From the NCBI RefSeq assembly GCF_028682455.1, contig NZ_JANHLD010000001.1, positions 1,116,001 through 1,180,000 of the forward strand: a stretch of 64,000 bases of DNA. The letters are read 5' to 3'. A program made the translations under genes and the position numbers. The notes under the pieces were generated by a model. The model did no database searches and was not told where the DNA came from. It was given only the letters and a program-made list of their open reading frames with translations. This stretch comes from Pseudomonas putida. Its GTDB lineage: Bacteria > Pseudomonadota > Gammaproteobacteria > Pseudomonadales > Pseudomonadaceae. This document shows, piece by piece, positions 18,530 to 31,472 of the stretch (its first letter is position 1; every line of letters begins with the position of its first letter).

Positions 18530-18596
18530 CTTCCCAAGGGGTGGGGAGGAATCTAACGTGGCCTGCAGGTAGTGACAAGTGTCAGGAGCGAGCACC

Positions 18597-19355
18597 ATGC
18601 AGGCAGTAGATTTCAATTCGGACATGGGCGAAGGCTTTGGTCCGTGGACCATCGGCGATGGCGTCGACAATGAGCTGATGGGCTTCATCAGTTCGGCCAA
18701 CATCGCCACCGGTTTTCATGCCGGCGACCCCGGCACCATGCGCCGCACGGTCGAGCAGGCCAAGCGCCTGGGCGTGGCGGTCGGCGCGCATCCGGGCTTT
18801 CGCGACCTGGTCGGTTTCGGCCGCCGGCACATCAACGCGCCGGCCCAGGAGCTGGTCGACGACATGTTGTATCAGTTGGGTGCCCTGCGCGAACTCGCCC
18901 GGGTCCAGGGCGTTGCGCTGCAGCACATCAAGCCCCACGGCGCGCTGTACATGCACCTGGCCCGGGACGAAGAAGCGGCGCGCTTGCTGGTGGAGAACCT
19001 GCAGCGCCTGGAGCCTGAGCTGTTGCTGTACTGCATGCCCGGCTCGGTGATCTGGCGGGTTGCCAACGAGCTCGGCCAACCGGTGATCCGCGAGTTCTAC
19101 GCCGACCGCGAATACGATCTCAGCGGCTCCATCGTCTTTACCCGGAACGTGCGTGCCTACGACCCCGCCCAGGTGGCGGCGCGGGTGTTGCGTGCCTGCC
19201 AGGAAGGCGTGGTGCGCACGGTCGAGGGGGAAGACCTGGCGATCGAGTTCGACTCCATCTGCTTGCACAGCGACACGCCCGGTGCCCTGGCGCTGGTCGA
19301 AGCCACGCGCAAGGCGCTCGACAGCGCGGGGATCATCGTGCGCGCGCCGCGCTGA
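18597..19355 (+). CDS. pxpA: 5-oxoprolinase subunit A, LamB/YcsF family
   Basis: 252-residue LamB/YcsF protein. It starts [15 protein letters not shown], the family signature, with HPGFRD (about 62-67), KPHGALY and a conserved C-terminal CLHSDTPGA. In PxpABC it is the subunit that, with PxpBC and ATP, opens 5-oxoproline to glutamate. The length equals E. coli PxpA (about 244). AGGAG precedes the ATG at 18597. It is first in a five-gene operon with BCCP, biotin carboxylase, pxpB and pxpC, so the substrate may be carboxylated before PxpA acts. Confidence 0.9.
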
Positions 19356-19448
19356 ATCCGGGGCAAGCACCCAGTGCCAACGTCGCCGGGGGCTGCCCAC
19401 CCATTTTTTTTGCCTGCCTTTCTACAACTAATTCCAAGAGGAACAGAC

Positions 19449-19694
19449 ATGGCCGAACACACTGTTATCACTCCATTGCCCGGCACCTTCTACCGCAAGG
19501 CCACCCCTGATTCGGCGGTCTACGTCGAGGAAGGGGCGCAGGTCAGCGCCGACACCGTGATTGGCCTGATCGAAGTCATGAAGCAGTTTTCCGAACTGAC
19601 CGCGGGGGCGGCAGGGCGGCTCGGCGCCTTCCTGGTGGAAGACGGCGACCCGGTGGAACCGGGTCAGGTCATCGCAACGCTCGACCCAGCGTGA
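19449..19694 (+). CDS. biotin carboxyl carrier protein, short AccB-type
   Basis: 81 residues, essentially a bare biotinyl domain: ITPLPGTFYRK, then the biotinylation loop IEVMKQF with Lys45 (the usual motif is EAMKM), then DPVEPGQVIATLDPA. It lacks the N-terminal half of the AccB of fatty-acid synthesis, so it is a dedicated carrier for this operon. Preceded by GAGG at 19438-19441. It lies 93 bp after pxpA and 10 bp before the biotin carboxylase gene. Confidence 0.87.
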   Translation: MAEHTVITPLPGTFYRKATPDSAVYVEEGAQVSADTVIGLIEVMKQFSELTAGAAGRLGAFLVEDGDPVEPGQVIATLDPA

Positions 19695-19704
19695 GGGCGT
19701 GATC

Positions 19705-21078
19705 ATGACGCAAGCCATTCGTAAGTTACTGGTCGCCAACCGTGGCGAAATTGCCGTGCGGATCATCCATGCCGCCAAGGCCCTGGGCATTCCCACCGTG
19801 GCCGCCTGCAGCGAGGCGGATATCGACTCCCAGGCCGCGCGCCTGGCGGACGAAGTGCATATCCTCGGCCCGTCCCGTGCCGACAAGAGCTACCTCAATG
19901 TCGAGGCCTTGCTCGGCGCCTTGCAGGTCACCGGTGCCAATGCGGTACATCCCGGGTATGGCTTTCTTTCGGAGAATGCCGACTTTGCCGAGGCGGTGCT
20001 CGCCGCCGGCGCGATTTTTGTCGGCCCCAGCCCGCAGACTATCCGGCGCATGGGCGACAAGGCCGAGGCGCGGCGCACGGCACAAGAGGCTGGTGTACCC
20101 GTGGTGCCGGGCTCGCCCGGTGAGCTGTTCGACGTCGATTCGGCTCTTGAGGCTGCCGAGTCCGTTGGCTACCCGTTGCTGATCAAAGCCTCGGCCGGTG
20201 GCGGCGGGCGTGGTATTCGCCTGGCGGAAAACGCCCAGCAATTGAGTGAAGAGTTTCCTCGCTCCCAACGCGAGGCCCAGGCTGCATTCGGCAATGGCGC
20301 GGTGTACCTGGAACGCTTTATCAGCAAGGCGCGGCACATCGAAGTCCAGGTGTTGGGCGATGGCAAGAACGCCGTGCACCTGTTCGAACGTGAGTGTTCA
20401 CTGCAGCGTCGGCGGCAGAAGATCTTTGAAGAGGCGCCGTCGCCGGCGCTGAATCAGCAGCAGCGCGAAACGCTCTGCGCCAGTGCGGTGCGCCTGACCG
20501 AAGCCCTCGGCTACACCGGTGCCGGGACGCTGGAATACTTGTATGACGACGTCACCGGCGAGTTCTTCTTCATCGAGATGAACACGCGGATTCAGGTCGA
20601 GCACCCGGTCAGCGAGTTGATCACCGGTATCGACCTGGTCCAGGCGATGCTGCGCATTGCCGGTGGCGAACCGCTGGGATTGAGGCAAAGTGACATCCAG
20701 TTGAACGGCGCCGCCCTGCAGATGCGCCTGAACGCCGAAGACCCATCCCGGGACTTCTTCCCCAGCCCCGGGCAGGTAGACACGCTGATCTGGCCGCAAG
20801 GGGAGGGCGTCCGGGTCGATAGCCATCTCTATCAGGGTTACCGCGTGCCGCCTTACTATGACTCCCTGTTGGCCAAGTTGATCGTCCATGGCAGCGACCG
20901 TGCCCAGGCATTGGCCCGTGCGCGCCTGGCGGTGGAGCAGACCACGCTCACCGGCATGGCCAGCACCTTGTCGCTGCACGGCGAACTGCTGCAGCAACCC
21001 TGGTTGCACAGCGCCGATTTTCATACCGGCACCCTCGAAACCTGGCTGGCCGAGCGCCGCAGCGGAGGTAACGCATGA
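19705..21078 (+). CDS. biotin carboxylase, AccC-type
   Basis: 457 residues. The N-terminal domain begins KLLVANRGEIAVRI; the ATP-grasp has the Gly-rich loop KASAGGGGRGIR (about 155-166), the metal/catalytic region EMNTRIQVEHPVSE (about 290-303) and a C-terminal domain. It carboxylates the biotin on the upstream carrier with ATP and bicarbonate. A GTG two codons earlier (19699) is an alternative start. It overlaps pxpB by 4 nt. A second AccC-type gene inside a pxp operon points to a dedicated biotin-dependent carboxylase rather than acetyl-CoA carboxylase. Confidence 0.9.
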   Translation: MTQAIRKLLVANRGEIAVRIIHAAKALGIPTVAACSEADIDSQAARLADEVHILGPSRADKSYLNVEALLGALQVTGANAVHPGYGFLSENADFAEAVLAAGAIFVGPSPQTIRRMGDKAEARRTAQEAGVPVVPGSPGELFDVDSALEAAESVGYPLLIKASAGGGGRGIRLAENAQQLSEEFPRSQREAQAAFGNGAVYLERFISKARHIEVQVLGDGKNAVHLFERECSLQRRRQKIFEEAPSPALNQQQRETLCASAVRLTEALGYTGAGTLEYLYDDVTGEFFFIEMNTRIQVEHPVSELITGIDLVQAMLRIAGGEPLGLRQSDIQLNGAALQMRLNAEDPSRDFFPSPGQVDTLIWPQGEGVRVDSHLYQGYRVPPYYDSLLAKLIVHGSDRAQALARARLAVEQTTLTGMASTLSLHGELLQQPWLHSADFHTGTLETWLAERRSGGNA

Positions 21079-21947
21079 GCACCCCGATCCGTTACAGCTT
21101 TGGCGCAGACGAGCATTTGTTTGCCGAAGTCAGCGACAGCATGTCGCTTGAAGCCTTCTTCAAGGGCATGGCGGTGACGCGCGCGGTGGAGCGCCTGGCC
21201 CTCGATGGCGTACTGGATGTGTGCCTGGCCAATGCGTCGTTCCAGATCCGTTTCGACCCGGACCGCATTGCCCCTCAGGCACTGCTCGAAGCGGTCAAGA
21301 CCGCCGAAGCCGAGGCCGTCGCGCAACGCAGCCTGCACACGCGGATCATCGAGATTCCGGTGCTGTACAACGACCCCTGGACCCACGAAACCCTGATGCG
21401 CTTTCGCGACCGCCACCAGGACCCGAGCGTGACCGACCTGGAGTACGCCGCACGGGTCAATGGCCTGGCGGATGTCGACGCGTTCATCGCCGCCCACAGC
21501 GGTGCACCGTGGTTCGTGTCGATGGTCGGCTTCGTCGCAGGGCTGCCGTTCATGTTCCAGATGGTCGAGCGCGAGCGCCAGTTGCAGGTGCCCAAGTACC
21601 TGAGCCCACGTACCGATACGCCGAAGTTGACCCTGGGCCACGGCGGCTGTTTCGGCTGCATCTACTCGGTGCGCGGCGCCGGTGGCTACCAGATGTTCGG
21701 TGTCACGCCGGCACCGATCTACGACCCGCAGCAGAACCTGGCGTACCTCAAGGAGCACATGGTGTTCTTCCGCCCGGGCGACATCGTGCAGTTCAAGCCG
21801 ATGGATCGTGAGGCCTACGACCAGGCCGTCGCCGAAGTGGAGGCGGGACGCTTTGATCTGCGGATTCGCCCGGTGGAATTCTCGCTGGATGCATTTCTGG
21901 CCGACCCAGTCGGCTATCCCAAGTTGTTGCAGGAGGTGCTGGCATGA
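21075..21947 (+). CDS. pxpB: 5-oxoprolinase subunit B, KipI/AHS1 family
   Basis: 290-residue AHS1/KipI protein. The C-terminal half has the strongest family marks (LTLGHGGCFGCIYSVRGAGG broken here as LTLGHGGCF and GYQMFGVTPAPIYD). It is about 70 residues longer than E. coli PxpB; the extra length is mostly a segment around residues 95-140. AHS1 domains also form half of the carboxyltransferase region of urea carboxylase. The ATG at 21075 overlaps the biotin carboxylase stop by 4 nt, and its own stop overlaps pxpC likewise. Confidence 0.87.
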   Translation: MSTPIRYSFGADEHLFAEVSDSMSLEAFFKGMAVTRAVERLALDGVLDVCLANASFQIRFDPDRIAPQALLEAVKTAEAEAVAQRSLHTRIIEIPVLYNDPWTHETLMRFRDRHQDPSVTDLEYAARVNGLADVDAFIAAHSGAPWFVSMVGFVAGLPFMFQMVERERQLQVPKYLSPRTDTPKLTLGHGGCFGCIYSVRGAGGYQMFGVTPAPIYDPQQNLAYLKEHMVFFRPGDIVQFKPMDREAYDQAVAEVEAGRFDLRIRPVEFSLDAFLADPVGYPKLLQEVLA

Positions 21948-22918
21948 TCAAGGTACTCAAACCCGGCCTCGCCACCTCGGTGCAAGACCTGGGGCGCGAG
22001 GGCTACTACCACCTGGGGATCCCGCCTTCCGGCGCGCTCGATCAGTACGCCTTGAGCGCGGCCAACCAGTTGGTCGGCAACCCGGCCGGTGCGGCGGGGC
22101 TGGAATGCACGCTGCTCGGCCCCGAGCTTGAGTTCCAGCAGGATGCCCTGGTGGCAGTGTGCGGGGCGCACATGATGCCGAAGGTCGATGGCATCGACAT
22201 GCACCCCGACACCGCCTTCACGGTAAAGGCTGGGCAAGTGCTGCGTTTTGATTTTCCCAAAGCCGGCGCGCGGGCCTACCTGGCGGTCGCCGGTGGCATC
22301 GATGTGCCGGTGGTGCTCGGTAGCCGTTCGACCTATGCCCTGGGTGCGCTGGGTGGCTTTCACGGCCGCCGGCTGATTGCCGGGGACGAGTTGCCGGTGG
22401 GGGTCGCCAGTGGCAAGAGCCGGGCCGGGGCGAGCCTGCCCATGGCTTTGCGTCAGTCATTGGGTGGCGAAATCACCCTGCGCGTGGTGCCGGGCTTGTA
22501 TTACGAGCGCCTGACTGCCGCCGCGGCCGACAGCTTTTTCGCCGAAGCCTGGACCGTGGGCTCGGAAGCCGACCGTATCGGCTACCGCTTCAAGGGCGGC
22601 AGTGCGCTGAACTTTCAGCCGCGCGAGCAACCGTTCGGTGCCGGTTCCGATCCGTCGAACATCGTCGACAGCTGCTACCCGATTGGCTCGATCCAGGTCC
22701 CGGCCGGCCTCGAACCTATCGTGCTGCACCGGGATGCGGTGTCGGGTGGCGGCTACGCCATGATTGGCACGGTGATCAGCGCCGACCTCGACCTGATCGG
22801 CCAGATGCAACCCAACCAGAAGGCCCGGTTTGTTGCCGTCACCCTTGAAGAAGCGCTGGAAGCACGGCGTTCCTACAAGAAAAAACTGGCCTGCCTGAGC
22901 AAACTGTTTCCCTCCTGA
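21944..22918 (+). CDS. pxpC: 5-oxoprolinase subunit C, KipA/AHS2 family
   Basis: 324-residue AHS2/KipA protein. It starts MIKVLKPGLATSVQDLGREG, and the family motifs GIPPSGALDQYAL, NPAGAAGLE and YLAVAGGIDVP are evident. The length is slightly above E. coli PxpC (310). It pairs with PxpB; together the two correspond to the carboxyltransferase half of urea carboxylase. It is the last gene of the operon (ATGA overlap with pxpB), followed by a REP-type inverted pair. Confidence 0.9.
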   Translation: MIKVLKPGLATSVQDLGREGYYHLGIPPSGALDQYALSAANQLVGNPAGAAGLECTLLGPELEFQQDALVAVCGAHMMPKVDGIDMHPDTAFTVKAGQVLRFDFPKAGARAYLAVAGGIDVPVVLGSRSTYALGALGGFHGRRLIAGDELPVGVASGKSRAGASLPMALRQSLGGEITLRVVPGLYYERLTAAAADSFFAEAWTVGSEADRIGYRFKGGSALNFQPREQPFGAGSDPSNIVDSCYPIGSIQVPAGLEPIVLHRDAVSGGGYAMIGTVISADLDLIGQMQPNQKARFVAVTLEEALEARRSYKKKLACLSKLFPS

Positions 22919-23546: not shown

Positions 23547-24320
23547 TTACGCAGCACGCTCCAGGGCGCCCAACAGGTCCACGAACTCCATCGAGAGTTT
23601 GTTGCGCGGCGCCAGGCGGACCAGCGGGATGGACGCTTCGTGGGATTCGCGCATCTTCACCGAGCTGCTCAGGTAAGTCGGCAGAACGGGCAGGCCTTCG
23701 GCGAGCAACTGGTCGATCAGGGTTTGATGAAGGGTGGTCCGACCGGAGAACTGGTTCACCACGATCCCCTCGAGAAGCAGCGACTCGTTGTGGTCGAAGC
23801 GCAGGTCCTCGACCTGGGCGATCACGCTATACAGCGCCTGGCGGGAAAAGCTGTCGCAATCGAAGGGAATGAGCAGCCTGTCGGCCGCCACCAGGGCACT
23901 GAACGTATAGAAGTTCAGCGAGGGCGGGGTATCGATATAGATGCGTTCGTAGTCTTGCGAAAGCTCGACCAGCAACCGGCGTAGCTTGTTGACTTTGAAC
24001 TTGCTCTCAAGCTTGGGCTGGATGTCTGTCAGGTCTGGGCTGGCGGTCACCAGGTGGAGGTTGTCGTACGCCGTTTCGGTGATGGTCACGCGGGATTTCT
24101 TGCTCGCAGGTCCGCTGGACAAGGTCTGCTTGAAAAAGTCGGTGATACCGGACGGGATGTCGTTGTCGAGAAGACCCGTGAGGTAATGCGTTGAGTTTGC
24201 CTGAGGGTCGAGGTCGACCAACAGTGTCCGGTATCCCTCGGCGGCACTGACTGCGGCGAGGTTGCACGCAATGCTGGATTTACCCACTCCACCTTTCTGA
24301 TTGAATACAACTCGACGCAT
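23547..24320 (-). CDS. orphan ParA/MinD-type ATPase
   Basis: 257-residue deviant Walker ATPase with KGGVGKSS (residues 9-16), switch region [10 protein letters not shown] and Walker B-like YIDTPPSLN. It resembles plasmid/chromosomal ParA proteins that pattern DNA, polar or chemosensory cargo. No parB gene or parS-like cluster is beside it, and it is not next to an origin region. AAGGAT lies upstream of the ATG at 24320. Its cargo cannot be inferred from the neighbours (isochorismatase-type hydrolase and SDR). Confidence 0.85.
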
Positions 24321-25417: not shown

Positions 25418-27145
25418 TCACAGGAAGGGCAAGGCTTGTGGCAGGTCCAGTTCCAGCGCCCAGCGCAGTGGTCCGCCGTCGCCCGGGGTAATAACCTGGG
25501 CCTTGGCCTGCAAGCGCAACAGCAGGCGCTGGATGCTCGCATGGGCCAGCAGGGCGCGGGTGTCCTCGGGGGGCGGCTCGACCCAGGGCGACAGCACAAG
25601 GCTCAGGCGCAGCAAGCCTCGTGGCTGGATAGTGGTGGTCAGGTGCAGGTCGATCCGCGCCGGCAACGCTACCCGTTGCAGGTAGCCGAACAGGCTGTCG
25701 AGCAACTGTCGGTAGTGGCGGGCGTCGATCCAGGCGCATTGCAGGGCGCGCAGGCCGGGACCAATGTCCAGCTGGCAAGCTTGGGCGGCGAGTCGCTGGC
25801 GCCAGGGGGCGAGGAGTTCATCGGTCAATAAGCCCAGGTTGTGGGCTTCGGTGTGTGCCTCCTGTTCGTGGGCATCCAGCGCCATCACTTCATCGACCCG
25901 GGCCAGGCTCTGGCGCATGTCGTCCAGTTGCCTGGCCAGCGCGTTCAGGCTGGGCTGCGGGTTGTCGGTGCCGGGTTGCAAGGCCTGGTTGAGGTTCTCT
26001 TGCATGCTCTGCAGCAGGGCCTGCAGCTCGTGGCTGACGGCCACCAGCGTGGCGCTCTTGAGGTGGCTTTCAAACCGCGCCTCGGCCCCTTCGTGGCGCA
26101 GGGTGGTGAGTAGCTTGTCGCGCTCGGTCAGGTCGCGCATGCCGCCGAGCATGGCGATCAGTTTGCCGGCCTCGTCACGAAACGGCGTGCACCAGATATG
26201 CAGGGCGGTTGGCACCCCGGAGATGTCGACCACAGCCTCGGTCATGAAGGGTTCTTCACGGATCACCGCCTCGCGAAAGCGCAGCCATGAGCGCTCGCGC
26301 ATAGGCGCCGCGAGCCACAGCGCCCGGTCGATGGTTGTGCCGCGGATCATCTCGAAACTTTCGCCGGTGTAGGTCAGGTAGCGGCGATTGCACATCAGCA
26401 GGTGGCCTTCCAGGTCGCGCACGAACATGGGGTAGGGCGCCGAGTCGAGCAGGCCCCGCAACAGGCCGTATTCGCGCAGCTGTCGCGGGTCGACCAGCGA
26501 ACCCTGTACCCGCCCGGTGTCATCGCCGGCCACCAGGCCATGGTTGCGGGCGACTTCCAGCAGTTGGAAGTCATTGTCGACCTTGAGCTTCTGGTGCAGG
26601 CGCGCCTTGTAGGTGCTGACGGTCTTGTAGCTCAGGCTCAGTTGCCCGGCGATGTCCTTGTTGTTCAGGCCCTGGCTGAGCATCTGCAGTACGGTCAGTT
26701 CACGGCCGGAGAGCTGCTCCAGTTCGCTTTCGCCCTCCTGGCGCGGCGCCTCGGTGCGGGTTGCCTCGCGGGGGAAGTAGCTGCGCCCGTGGCTGACCGC
26801 CTGCAGGGCATGTTCCAGCTCGGTCAGCGCCTCGGTCTTGCTCACATATGCGTCGGCCCCGGCCTGTAGCGAGCGGGCAGCGTACAGGCTGGCCTCCTGG
26901 ACGCTGTACACCAGCAGCTTGATGCCCTCATGGCTGGCGCGCAGGCGGCGCAGCAGGTCCAACCCGCCCAGGCGCGGCACCAGCAGTTCGAGAATCACCA
27001 GCTCCGGGTGCAGTTGGCGGCATTTGTCCAGGGCATCCTGGCCGTTGTCGACCTCGGCCAGCACCTGGTGGCCCGTGCGCGCAAGCAAGGCCCGCAGCCC
27101 GTCGCGAACGATGGGCAGGTGGTCCACGAGCAGCACTGTGCTCAT
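25418..27145 (-). CDS. fused regulator: receiver, LuxR HTH, PAS and degenerate histidine-kinase module
   Basis: 575 residues. A NarL-type receiver (1-120) has Asp8, Lys103 and Glu53 where the phospho-acceptor Asp is expected (ILELLVP, against the usual LLDLNMP). A LuxR HTH (about 143-205) has LSGRELTVLQMLSQG and NKDIAGQLSLSYKTVSTYK. A PAS domain follows at about 225-340, then a kinase-like region with a retained H-box VAVSHELQALL (His372). The C-terminal part (about 430-575) sits where HATPase_c should be but lacks recognisable N, G1 and G2 boxes. A receiver plus HTH in front of PAS and kinase-like modules is unusual. The ATG at 27145 fits the receiver start. The gene diverges from the autotransporter gene, its likely target. 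Confidence 0.85.
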   Translation of the reverse strand: MSTVLLVDHLPIVRDGLRALLARTGHQVLAEVDNGQDALDKCRQLHPELVILELLVPRLGGLDLLRRLRASHEGIKLLVYSVQEASLYAARSLQAGADAYVSKTEALTELEHALQAVSHGRSYFPREATRTEAPRQEGESELEQLSGRELTVLQMLSQGLNNKDIAGQLSLSYKTVSTYKARLHQKLKVDNDFQLLEVARNHGLVAGDDTGRVQGSLVDPRQLREYGLLRGLLDSAPYPMFVRDLEGHLLMCNRRYLTYTGESFEMIRGTTIDRALWLAAPMRERSWLRFREAVIREEPFMTEAVVDISGVPTALHIWCTPFRDEAGKLIAMLGGMRDLTERDKLLTTLRHEGAEARFESHLKSATLVAVSHELQALLQSMQENLNQALQPGTDNPQPSLNALARQLDDMRQSLARVDEVMALDAHEQEAHTEAHNLGLLTDELLAPWRQRLAAQACQLDIGPGLRALQCAWIDARHYRQLLDSLFGYLQRVALPARIDLHLTTTIQPRGLLRLSLVLSPWVEPPPEDTRALLAHASIQRLLLRLQAKAQVITPGDGGPLRWALELDLPQALPFL

Positions 27146-27296
27146 GCGCAGTTACCTCCGAGGCGGTTCCCGCCCAAGCATAGTTCAGTACGGTCGAGAG
27201 TCACTCCTACAAGGGCGTGGATGTTGCTCCGACATAAGCCTCCCCGGCACTCGCGCAGACTGCACGCACCCCATTTCCAGCGCCCGCGAGGCTGCC

Positions 27297-30200
27297 ATGA
27301 AAACCTTCACCCGTCATCCACGCCCTCCGAAGTTCCAGCGCAGCTGCCTGGGCCAGGCCATCGGCCTGGTACTGGCGGGACTGTTCAGCCTCAACGTGAT
27401 TGAAGCCGAAGCCGAGGACAACGCCATCGAAGCACCGGCCCGGGACGTCGACCCACCCTCGGCCGCCGGCGTCATGGCCAGCCCGTCCTACCTGCAGCTC
27501 GCCCTGCAGGCCAGTGAAGACGCCCCCCGGGTGTTTGCCGCACGCCTGCTTGGCGCCCCGGCACCGATCAACGTCACCGTTGCCGACGGCATTGGCATTG
27601 CCACTGCCGGCGCCCACGACGATGCCACCGTCAACCTGGCTGCCGCGCGTACCGTGGGTGTACTGGCCCAGGGCGCCAGCAGCGTCGGCTTCAACGGCGG
27701 CACCGTCAACAGCAGCGCACTCATCGCCGCCAACGCTGCCGGCCAGACCGGCCTGCTGGCAAGCAATGGCGGCCAGCTCAGCGGGAACGGCGTGACCGTC
27801 AACCTGGCGCCCAAGGCCTCCAATGGCGTTGTACTCACCGTCAGCAACATGACCGGCGTCAGCGCCAAAAGCGCTGGCCAGGTATCGCTGCGTGACAGCA
27901 ACGTCAGCATGGGCGGCAACGTCAGCGGCCTGAACAACCAGGGCCTGGTGGCCAGCGGTAGCGGCAGCCACATCGATTTTGCCGGCGGCAGCGTCAGCAC
28001 CCTGTCGAAAGGTTCGGTCGCTGTCGTGGCGCAAGACGGTGGCAGCATCCGCCTGAGCGAGGGCAGTGTGATCAGCACCACCGGTGCGCCCAGCCCGACC
28101 ACCGCCAGCCATGGCCTCAAAGCCACTGGCGCTGGCAGCCGGATCGATGCAAGCGATGTAGCGGTCAACGTCGGTGCTGCGGGGGCAAGTGCTGTCCGCG
28201 CCGAGGACGGCGCGCACATTCAGCTCAAGGACAGCACCCTGCTCAGCACTTCGGCGGCCTCCAGCACCAGCAGTACGGCCATCCTGCATGCGCTCGGCGG
28301 TGCCTCGATCGAGGCCGACAGGTCTCAGGTCAGTGCAACCGGCAACTACCTCGGCGGTGTACGCGCCGACGGCGCCGGCAGCAGTGTCACGGTGAAAAAC
28401 GGCAGCAGCCTGTCGATCAAGGGTTCCGGCAGCGCCGCTGACTATGCCTCGGGCGCCCGCGCCATGAACGGTGGCGCGGTTGTCCTGCAGGACAGCACGG
28501 TGTCGACCCAGGGCACTTTCAGCCATGGCGTCTCGGTGGAAGGCAGTGGCTCCCGGGCCGATGTCTCGAACAGCAGCATTAATGTGGACGGTGCTCGCTC
28601 ACACGGTATCTACGTCAAGGATGGCGCCAGTGCCGCGGTGAACAGCAGTAAGATCAGCCTCGATACTGTTCCCGGCAATGCCGGCCCCTGGGGCCTCGGC
28701 GCGTTGGTCGAAGGCACTGGTTCATCCCTGCGCCTGGACGACAGTGAAGTGCGCACCACCCAGAAAACCAGCTATGGCGCACGTGCCCTGGCAGGTGCCA
28801 ACCTGGAGATCAACAACGGCCTGATCGACACCCAGGGCAATTACTCGACCGGCCTGACCGCCGCCAGCTCGACTGTGGTGGCCCGCAACCTCACCATCAC
28901 CACCTCGGGTAACGACAACGCCATGGGCGTCGTCGCCGATACCGCTTCCACCATTACCCTGTACGGCGGCTCGGTGACCACCACCGGCAACGGCTCGCCG
29001 ATCTCGTCCAACCTGACCTTTCCCCATGCCCTGGCCTCCCGCAACCCCGGCGCGCAACTCAACGCCTATGGCACCAGCGTGCGCACCACCGGCACCCAGG
29101 CGTACGGCGCGGCGGTGGACGACGGCGGCAGCATGTTGCTCGATGGCCTTTCGGTGCAGACCGAAGGCCAGTATTCGGTAGGCCTGTACGCCGGCATCGG
29201 CAAGCTCAAGCCCTCTGCGGTGAGCCTGATTGCCCGCAACGTCAGCGTCGAAACCCATGGCGACCAGGCCCCCGGTGCGCTGGTCAGCCGCCAGTACCAG
29301 GCCGATGAAGCCAAGCTGGAGCTGTTCGATTCGACCGTCAGCACCCACGGCCTGCGATCCCACGGCCTGCAGGCGGAGTCCGGGGCGCAACTGAGCGCCA
29401 GCAACACCTCGGCCAGCACCACCGGTGTCAGTGCCCTCGGCGCCCTCGCCAACAACACCGCCCATGTCGATCTCGACCAGGTCGGGGTGAACACCAGCGG
29501 TGACCTGGCCCACGGCGCCGTAGCCAAGAACGGGGGCGTACTGGCCGCCAGCGCCAGCGTGATCAACGCCTCCGGCCAGGAGGCCGCCGCACTGTACGCC
29601 CAGGGCACCGATACCCTCACGGGCAAGGCAACCATCGACAACAGCGTGCTGCACAACCGTGACGGCGCCACCGTCGGGGTGGCCGGGGTGGCCGACATCA
29701 GCCTGATCGACTCCATCGTTGGCGGCAGCGGCCAATGGCTGAATGTCGACAGCGCAGTGGCCAGCGACGGCAGCACCATGCCCGACATGGGCACCGGCCA
29801 GTGGCAGGGCGTGGGCAGTACCCTGGCCAGCGCCGGCAATGCGCGGATCGATGTATCGGGTTCGGTGCTCAACGGCTCGGCACGCACTGCTGCAGGCAGC
29901 GACTCCACGGTCAGCCTGAGCGACACCAGCATCTGGAACCTGACCGGTGAATCGAATCTGGGCAGCCTGCGCAACGAAGCCAGCCTGATCGATTTCAGCG
30001 CCCCGGTAGGCGGCAGTTTCAAGAACCTGACCGTCAACAACTACCACGGCGACAACGGCACCATTGCCCTGAACACCTACCTGTACACCGACAACTCGCC
30101 TTCGGACAAACTGGTGGTGGATGGCGGCACGGCCGATGGCAGCAGCAACCTGATGATCAAGAACGCCGGCGGCCCCGGCGCCCTGACCCAGGGCAATGGC

Positions 30201-31472
30201 ATCATGGTGGTCGATGCAGTCAACGGCGCCACTACCGATACCGAGGCCTTTCGCCTGCTCAACCGGGTCAAGGCCGGCCCCTATGAATACACCTTGCATC
30301 GCGCGAGCCAGGACGACAGCAACGGTGAAGCCTGGTACCTGCGTTCCACCAAGGATGCCGACCCTGTGGATCCGGTAAAACCAGTAGACCCGGTGAATCC
30401 AGTCAACCCAGTCAACCCGGTAGATCCGCTCGACCCTGTGGTCAACCCGGTTCCCGACACCCCGGTACGTCCACAGGTGCCCAATTACCGTGCAGAAACC
30501 TCGCTGTACCGTGCGCTGCCCTCGATGCTGCTGCACTACAGCCACGCGATGGTCGATACCCTGCACGAGCGGGTTGGCGAAGAGCGTCGCCTGGCCACCG
30601 ATCCACTGCCTGGCGAGGCCGTCGATACCTACGGCCCGAGCCTGGGCTGGGGTCGCCTGATCTACCGCAAGGGTGAGCAGGACCTGGGCGACGGCGCCAG
30701 CGCCGACTATCGCATCCACGCCTTCCAGGTGGGTGCCGACCTGTACCGCAACGACGACATCGATGGCAGCACCGACCAGGCCGGCCTGTCGCTGAGCATC
30801 GGTCGCATTGCCGGCAGCGTCGAACACAACGATGGCGCCAATGCCGGTGATGACCTGCTGCGCGCCTACGGTGTGGGTGGCTACTGGACCCACTTCGGCC
30901 CTGAAGGCTGGTACCTCGATGGTGTGCTGCAGTTCAACCAGTTCGACCTCAAGACCAGCCCCAACGACCTGGACGGTCTTAAAACCCGCGCTCGTGGTGT
31001 GACCGCCTCGCTGGAAGCCGGCTACCCGTTCCATGCCGAGAAAGACAAGGACCTGCACGTGGAGCCGCAAGCCCAGGTGATCGTCAGCAAGATCAAGGTC
31101 GACGACACCCATGACGAAGCCTCGGATGTACGCTTCGACGACGTCGACTCGCTGACCGGCCGCATTGGTGTACGCATCGACAAGGACTGGTTCCGCGAAG
31201 ACGACAAAGGCAAGATCCACCGCACCAATGCCTGGGTCCGTCCAAGTGTGTGGCACGAGTTCAAGGGCAAGGCCAAGACTGAGTTCTCGTCGGCCGATGG
31301 CTACATTCCCTTCGGTACGGACATGAGCGGCACATGGGGTGAGATGAACATGGGCGTGGACTACCAAGTCAACGAACGCACGACGGTGACGGGTTCGCTG
31401 GGTTACCAGAAGGCGTTTGGCGAAGACAGCAGGAGCTATGAAGGCATGATCGGGATCAAGGTCAAGTTCTGA
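27297..31472 (+). CDS. type V autotransporter, beta-helical passenger with C-terminal barrel
   Basis: 1391 residues starting at MKTFTRHPRPPKFQRSC (27297). An extended signal peptide with basic N-region ends near residue 38. The passenger (about 90-1010) is built of many short Ser/Thr/Gly/Asn-rich strands with recurring patterns such as STQGTFSHGVSVEGSGS and SYGARALAGANLEINN, the signature of a pertactin-like right-handed beta-helix. A Pro-Val-Asp/Asn linker follows (1022-1052), then an autotransporter beta-barrel (about 1110-1391) ending in the canonical terminal Phe (IKVKF). It probably presents or releases an adhesin-like passenger. No protease or esterase motif is seen. A longer upstream frame overlaps the regulator gene and is not coding. 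Confidence 0.9.
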   Translation: MKTFTRHPRPPKFQRSCLGQAIGLVLAGLFSLNVIEAEAEDNAIEAPARDVDPPSAAGVMASPSYLQLALQASEDAPRVFAARLLGAPAPINVTVADGIGIATAGAHDDATVNLAAARTVGVLAQGASSVGFNGGTVNSSALIAANAAGQTGLLASNGGQLSGNGVTVNLAPKASNGVVLTVSNMTGVSAKSAGQVSLRDSNVSMGGNVSGLNNQGLVASGSGSHIDFAGGSVSTLSKGSVAVVAQDGGSIRLSEGSVISTTGAPSPTTASHGLKATGAGSRIDASDVAVNVGAAGASAVRAEDGAHIQLKDSTLLSTSAASSTSSTAILHALGGASIEADRSQVSATGNYLGGVRADGAGSSVTVKNGSSLSIKGSGSAADYASGARAMNGGAVVLQDSTVSTQGTFSHGVSVEGSGSRADVSNSSINVDGARSHGIYVKDGASAAVNSSKISLDTVPGNAGPWGLGALVEGTGSSLRLDDSEVRTTQKTSYGARALAGANLEINNGLIDTQGNYSTGLTAASSTVVARNLTITTSGNDNAMGVVADTASTITLYGGSVTTTGNGSPISSNLTFPHALASRNPGAQLNAYGTSVRTTGTQAYGAAVDDGGSMLLDGLSVQTEGQYSVGLYAGIGKLKPSAVSLIARNVSVETHGDQAPGALVSRQYQADEAKLELFDSTVSTHGLRSHGLQAESGAQLSASNTSASTTGVSALGALANNTAHVDLDQVGVNTSGDLAHGAVAKNGGVLAASASVINASGQEAAALYAQGTDTLTGKATIDNSVLHNRDGATVGVAGVADISLIDSIVGGSGQWLNVDSAVASDGSTMPDMGTGQWQGVGSTLASAGNARIDVSGSVLNGSARTAAGSDSTVSLSDTSIWNLTGESNLGSLRNEASLIDFSAPVGGSFKNLTVNNYHGDNGTIALNTYLYTDNSPSDKLVVDGGTADGSSNLMIKNAGGPGALTQGNGIMVVDAVNGATTDTEAFRLLNRVKAGPYEYTLHRASQDDSNGEAWYLRSTKDADPVDPVKPVDPVNPVNPVNPVDPLDPVVNPVPDTPVRPQVPNYRAETSLYRALPSMLLHYSHAMVDTLHERVGEERRLATDPLPGEAVDTYGPSLGWGRLIYRKGEQDLGDGASADYRIHAFQVGADLYRNDDIDGSTDQAGLSLSIGRIAGSVEHNDGANAGDDLLRAYGVGGYWTHFGPEGWYLDGVLQFNQFDLKTSPNDLDGLKTRARGVTASLEAGYPFHAEKDKDLHVEPQAQVIVSKIKVDDTHDEASDVRFDDVDSLTGRIGVRIDKDWFREDDKGKIHRTNAWVRPSVWHEFKGKAKTEFSSADGYIPFGTDMSGTWGEMNMGVDYQVNERTTVTGSLGYQKAFGEDSRSYEGMIGIKVKF
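30360..30452 (+). repeat. Asp/Asn-Pro-Val triplet repeats in autotransporter linker
   Basis: Ninety-three bases encode 31 residues built almost only of DPV, NPV and KPV units between the beta-helix and the barrel. The codons vary, so the array is conserved at protein level more than as perfect DNA repeats. Its length could vary between strains by slippage or recombination. Confidence 0.75.

Follow-up and report, generated by a model that had tools for sequence, protein, structure and literature searches.

How might a regulator assembled from two-component parts control its target when its receiver lacks the phosphorylated aspartate and its kinase module looks dead? This question is raised by a gene in a 64,000-nucleotide stretch of a Pseudomonas putida genome (hereafter the window) that lies divergent to an autotransporter gene (Table 1). 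A sequence-only reading of this DNA had described a receiver with Glu53 at the phospho-acceptor position and Lys103 kept, followed by a LuxR-type helix-turn-helix (HTH), a PAS domain and an H-box with His372. Sequence and Pfam bear out all of these elements, and Glu53, Lys103 and His372 are all present. The receiver (REC) and GerE HTH are of the NarL/FixJ type, the phosphorylatable aspartate is absent, and position 9, the second metal-binding acid, is histidine.

Table 1. Positions in the window of the fused regulator, its domains and key codons, the neighbouring autotransporter gene and the putative operator.
Feature	Position	Strand	Basis or remark
Fused regulator gene, 575 aa	25418..27145	minus	single ORF: receiver, LuxR-type HTH, PAS, kinase remnant
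Receiver (pseudo-receiver), residues 4-114	26804..27136	minus	Pfam Response_reg 6e-20
Glu53 codon, phospho-acceptor position	26987..26989	minus	sequence
Lys103 codon	26837..26839	minus	kept in 102/102 family sequences
GerE/LuxR-type HTH, residues 144-198	26552..26716	minus	Pfam GerE 4e-18
PAS domain, residues 228-343	26117..26464	minus	Pfam; PDB match 6zj8
DHp-like helical pair, residues 346-430, with His372	25856..26110	minus	predicted models
CA-like remnant, residues 431-575, HATPase_c-shaped by prediction	25421..25855	minus	without N, G1, G2 box residues
Putative operator, direct repeat TCCTACA - 16 nt - TCCGACA, 23 bp apart	27205..27234	plus	pattern counts
Divergent autotransporter gene, likely target	27297..31472	plus	Pfam AC_1 6e-39, Autotransporter 9e-41
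Autotransporter beta-domain	30648..31400	plus	Pfam

The C-terminus had been described as lacking recognisable N and G boxes, and the family alignment agrees: the window regulator has none of the five ATP-box residues that were scored (N, D, G, G, G), and Pfam gave no HisKA or HATPase_c match up to E 1. An intact ATP lid is likewise absent, although 10 of 102 family sequences keep at least four of the five box residues. Structure prediction gives this region a HATPase_c-shaped fold without the box residues. The model of the DHp and CA folds has a pLDDT of 91.7, with Foldseek and VIA-align matches that speak to fold only, and from these models we take the C-terminal fold to be kinase-shaped with high confidence. 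The full-length model has a pTM of 0.45 and so does not give the arrangement of the domains. His372 falls in the H-box column, yet that column holds histidine in only 10 of the 102 family sequences.

For the PAS stretch, the BvgS PAS structure 6zj8 (4e-16) was the only PDB match at 1e-5, and residues R243, N253, W318, P321, G327 and G335 are invariant among 40 aligned sequences. We found no membrane helix in the window regulator (highest 19-residue hydropathy 1.28) and, by Pfam, no periplasmic sensor domains and no REC-Hpt tail. Like one-component PAS-HTH regulators, the protein carries a sensor-type and a DNA-binding domain in one chain without a membrane part. Unlike them, it is built from two-component parts, with the receiver, DHp-like and CA-like folds retained.

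A protein search, in which the 7995 candidates with the most shared words were scored, gave 87 matches. Those covering 61-100% of the window regulator (P0001-P0064) were kept and those to REC or kinase only (P0065-P0087) were left out. Pooling with ORFs from the fetched loci, excluding ORFs of 420 aa or fewer, gave 108 sequences; six identical or contained sequences were removed and 102, including the window regulator, were aligned. Position 53 is Glu in 78, Asp in 22, Gly in one and missing in one. Homologues with aspartate, which the sequence-only reading had taken as the sign of a local variant, do exist (22 of the 101 with a residue there). Glutamate is the majority state and the site has changed at least nine times, and a local variant is ruled out. 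Position 81 is Ser in 78 sequences, Thr in 23 and Ala in one; an acid occurs at position 9 in 22 of 101 (12 with Glu53 and 10 with Asp53). A single member (L161 15815-17827, G356:C1:1780929) combines Asp53, the H-box histidine and five of five box residues, and would be a self-contained two-component protein. Since it is the only one of the 102 with this full set, loss of catalysis as a one-strain quirk is ruled out.

A quick tree of 101 rows (P0033, which has no receiver, was left out) requires at the fewest nine changes between Asp and Glu at position 53, six between histidine and another residue in the H-box and three in the ATP boxes; the tree is unrooted, so the directions of change are not set, and the tool warned of long branches that meet. 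Members with intact boxes lie on both sides of the tree midpoint. The family is best read as decaying repeatedly.

Stand-alone relatives suggest how such a chain may have arisen. The control loci were L041-L110 less L042, which had no passing ORF in the 180-330 aa range; in all 69, the best match within that range is a stand-alone REC-HTH protein. Asp53, the first acid and the lysine are present in 69/69 of these proteins and the second acid in 67/69. In 44 of the 69 loci there is, no more than 400 bp away, a kinase ORF resembling the one at L053 (736-1239 aa), always downstream on the same strand (44/44), and 41 of these 44 kinases are 1172-1239 aa long. The one scanned, from L043, contains two SBP_bac_3 domains, PAS, HisKA, HATPase_c, REC and Hpt. 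At the L053 locus of P. aeruginosa PA7, the regulator is followed by a shorter kinase (PAS, HisKA, HATPase_c, REC, Hpt), which matches the fused L036 protein at 35% over 377 aa (PAS-HisKA-HATPase) and the window regulator at 34% over 169 aa (PAS and the start of DHp). The fused domain order, REC-HTH-PAS-kinase, is that of the genes, regulator then kinase. On the simplest reading, a BvgA-like regulator and the PAS-kinase half of a BvgS-like protein were likely fused, the sensor part and REC-Hpt tail being lost. Neighbouring genes would have joined, the periplasmic, membrane and C-terminal REC-Hpt parts of the kinase would have been lost, and the catalytic residues would then have decayed.

Phosphorylation independence of the window regulator is well supported at the residue level, because it has Glu53, His9 and no ATP-box residues, and because the H-box residue is not histidine in 92 of the 102 family sequences. 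The sequence-only reading had proposed a constitutively competent DNA binder gated by PAS and kinase-like dimerisation instead of phosphorylation; the last element stands on the sequence, and constitutive competence and PAS gating keep their conditional standing. We assign a probability of roughly 60% to the reading that the regulator is likely a fusion of a BvgA-like protein with the PAS-kinase half of a BvgS-like one, carrying Glu53 and none of the five ATP-box residues, that is predicted to act as a PAS-gated switch of the divergent autotransporter gene through CTACA-type half-sites. To judge from its sequence, it is likely a phosphorylation-independent, PAS-gated, one-protein version of BvgAS. 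Retention of His372 in the window regulator and its two nearest relatives weighs against this reading.

In the proposed mechanism, Glu53 together with Ser81 and Lys103 would keep the receiver in or near its active state. The PAS domain and DHp-like helices would form and gate a dimer, placing the HTH domains on the half-sites, with PAS likely replacing phosphate as the input. The dimer would bind the repeat, and the autotransporter gene and the regulator's own gene would be activated. Glutamate alone at the phospho-site is often insufficient (PMC4395418, PMC12632262; papers cited by PMC number are quoted from excerpts throughout), and ChxR still bound DNA when the glutamate at this site was changed to Asp or Ala (PMC4395418). 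BvgS is governed by coiled coils flanking its PAS domain (PMC5829827), a precedent on which gating without catalysis could readily be modelled.

Rates of substitution bear on whether the PAS domain does more than dimerise. In comparisons with L151, L150 and L031, dN/dS was 0.04-0.15 for REC, 0.03-0.04 for HTH, 0.14-0.19 for PAS, 0.25-0.38 for the DHp-like and 0.20-0.38 for the CA-like region; the values are rough, since they come from simple counting and dS exceeds 1 in several regions. By this measure the window regulator is constrained and its kinase remnant is looser. It could instead be a constitutively active activator in which PAS and the kinase remnant hold a permanent dimer, so that the amount of protein and not a ligand sets the output. 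Glutamate at the phospho-site can be phosphomimetic in many regulators (PMC12632262), and the kinase remnant, at 0.20-0.38, evolves faster than REC and HTH, as such a protein would allow. The invariant PAS residues and the PAS dN/dS of 0.14-0.19 are harder to explain by dimerising alone, and we consider a permanently active protein unlikely.

A PAS-gated switch of the adjacent gene, the reading we prefer, can also be examined through the company that family genes keep. Among 398 genomes of the genus, 33 full-length matches occur in 18 (at most three matches were scored per genome), with a clear E-value gap, 3e-113 to 1e-85, below them; two more genes from another search bring the family to at least 35 genes in these 18 genomes. 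A search of 369 genomes of the class found a member, at E 1e-92, in the window's own genome alone. The best 80 named contigs include one full-length member outside Pseudomonas (L035, Silvimonas terrae), and a Rahnella sequence (L040) matches over residues 1-388 only. The window genome has two members, the window regulator and G000:C2:257804, which has Asp53 and adjoins a two-partner exoprotein gene.

Twenty-seven of the 35 counted family genes lie within 6 kb of a match to PF03797 (autotransporter) or PF05860 (two-partner exoprotein), where 0.70 would be expected by position; the members share ancestry, and these loci are not independent draws. Among the listed stand-alone regulators of the same 18 genomes, the figure is 1 of 13. 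Four more family genes (G125:C136, G027:C3:641934, G321:C12 and G376:C170) have a YadA anchor (PF03895) at a distance of 1.7-4.4 kb; the 18 genomes hold only six such anchors. The neighbour of G376:C15 runs off the contig end and matches no Pfam model, but it shares 56% identity over 450 columns with the passenger of the window autotransporter. In total, 32 of 35 family genes are near a type V gene encoding an autotransporter, two-partner exoprotein or trimeric adhesin. No type V neighbour was found at the other three (G321:C3:94440, G356:C1:3619572 and G027:C4:746557); the gene close to the first of these encodes a very large cadherin/Ig-repeat protein. Among 33 labelled rows of the tree, the neighbour switches class at least six times, which suggests that the family is linked to type V export rather than to a single lineage of adhesins. 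The family is real and conserved, and it unites known parts (pseudo-receiver, pseudokinase, BvgAS) in one fused protein with a tie to type V adhesins.

Eight further full-length members lie on named contigs, and a type V neighbour was found for three (L031, L034 and L035) and not for L033, L036, L037, L038 and L039. The neighbour of L033 is SbcC-like. The members at L036 (9926-11797), L037 (9926-11794) and L039 (10001-11794) have Glu53 and at least four of the five ATP-box residues without the H-box histidine; they adjoin apparent purine-catabolism genes (a permease and a hydroxyisourate-hydrolase-like gene, named by eye), with no adjacent type V gene found. On the short contig of L038, a large Ig-like/VWA gene cut by the contig start (2-3370) lies two genes from the fused regulator, and its product is a possible surface target outside type V.

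Two loci are compound, with two fused regulators each. G027:C3:619386-643496 also carries three autotransporter matches and a YadA anchor, along with four direct repeats; G356:C1:1769879-1782482 has two autotransporter matches and two direct repeats. In the window itself, the autotransporter start was placed at the ATG at 27297, and the same start aligns in L151, L150, L031 and L152. An 881-aa antisense ORF (28722-31367, minus strand) covers much of the autotransporter gene and is probably a by-product of base composition. Elsewhere in the window, by eye, are a ParA-like ATPase gene (23547-24320, minus strand) apart from any obvious partition partner and an apparent 5-oxoprolinase cluster with a biotin carboxylase (18579-22918).

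The gap between the regulator and autotransporter genes is 151 bp and holds TCCTACA at 27205 and TCCGACA at 27228. The patterns below were read off these loci beforehand, so their counts test specificity and are not blind discovery. Upstream of 44 family genes, 11 kb in all, there are 21 copies of TCCTACA, spread over 17 of the genes (L032 and L153 in this set are the same sequence); the other 893 kb of the loci have 85. The direct repeat TCCKACA-N15-16-TCCKACA occurs once in the window genome, at the regulator-autotransporter gap, and 20 times in the 18 genomes (102 Mb; reversed control, 3); 10 of the 20 lie within 600 bp of a family gene, where 0.008 would be expected. The palindrome TGTAG-N8-CTACA was found 46 times in the same 102 Mb versus 129 for its reversed control, so the pattern is not an intrinsically frequent one; 11 of the 46 fall no more than 600 bp from a family gene (0.019 expected). 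The same palindrome occurs once in 69 control loci (1.38 Mb; L041-L110 without L053). An autotransporter neighbour by coincidence is ruled out by the position expectation (27 of 35 versus 0.70) and the repeat counts. The sequence-only reading had suggested that the regulator acts on the divergent autotransporter gene; with type V linkage at 32 of 35 family genes and a repeat in the shared gap, that link is much stronger than it could have known.

The spacing of the repeats at family genes, 22-23 bp, is close to the 22 bp that separates bound BvgA dimers (PMC7250471). Compared with the primary site at Bordetella fha, the L168 site matches 12 of 14 bases and the best stretch of the window 6 of 14. 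No perfect inverted repeats (at least six pairs, gap up to 12) were found in the intergenic region of the window, where what is shared is the direct repeat, and no sigma-70-type promoter or terminator in 27100-27330. Operator-like palindromes also occur away from counted family genes at G000:C2:877115 and G307:C1:2881829, which may mark further targets. Another palindrome, at G321:C3:393533, lies 2.3 kb ahead of a two-partner exoprotein match and hints at a family gene in that genome beyond those counted.

The exact form TCCTACA-N16-TCCGACA has 25 sites in the 398 genomes (reversed control, 3). Five are at the five best-scoring family genes, one each (G000, G187, G307, G347 and G376). The other 20, one per genome, are in genomes where no family gene was found, which weighs against the preferred reading and would suit a modulator that forms heterodimers with canonical BvgA/EvgA-like regulators or competes with them for half-sites, as a coincidence detector or an antagonist. 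Possible partners are at hand, as the window genome encodes at least two stand-alone relatives that are 45% and 43% identical over REC-HTH, and heterodimers of atypical regulators are known, as in WhiI/BldM (PMC12632262). A palindrome or direct repeat within 600 bp marks 20 of the 35 counted family genes (neither was found at 15), which fits a dedicated local switch better, and we regard modulation of other regulators as quite improbable. That the gene is a decaying two-component relic without function is very improbable indeed: catalytic residues have changed repeatedly (at least six histidine and three ATP-box changes on the tree), but Lys103 is invariant, REC and HTH are under strong purifying selection and shared repeats recur at family genes.

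For the family as a whole, the PAS-gated reading extends to a BvgAS-type system fused into a cytosolic protein, in which phosphotransfer has repeatedly been lost, Glu53 would freeze the receiver in an on-like state, and PAS and pseudokinase would form the switch of a dedicated local controller, used repeatedly for type V adhesins, with its own CTACA-type operator at each copy. We hold this broader proposal to be evenly balanced.

BvgA/BvgS and EvgA/EvgS are the closest known systems: among solved structures, the REC-HTH of the window regulator is closest to EvgA and its PAS domain to BvgS. In Bordetella, BvgAS controls FHA (two-partner secretion) and pertactin (an autotransporter). Unlike BvgAS, the window regulator is one chain, with Glu53 and no ATP-box residues, and Venus-flytrap domains, a membrane part and a REC-Hpt tail were not found. 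The pseudo-histidine kinases DivL and RetS keep the kinase fold as a scaffold, and both structures are among the fold matches of the window C-terminus. DivL and RetS act on other kinases; in the window regulator, by contrast, a DNA-binding regulator is covalently joined to the module, from which the ATP-box residues have been lost. As in ChxR and other aspartate-less receivers, the window REC has glutamate in place of the phospho-aspartate, the commonest replacement at this site (26%; PMC4395418). It differs from ChxR-type pseudo-receivers in being fused to PAS and a dead-looking kinase, an arrangement not found in the excerpts of PMC12632262 or PMC4395418. No paper on the fused architecture or its type V link was found in the literature searched (open-licence papers only).

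How bacterial pseudo-receivers are activated and inactivated was called a mystery in a 2025 paper (PMC12632262). Here, one small locus unites a candidate input (PAS and a dead-looking kinase), a pseudo-receiver, a DNA-binding domain, a likely operator and a likely target, and relatives of the regulator range from one member with all the checked catalytic residues to others with none. Because these parts lie at a single locus and the relatives span this range, gating in cis as a replacement for phosphorylation is directly testable. For Pseudomonas, the family also offers a genomic starting point in the search for type V adhesin regulators.
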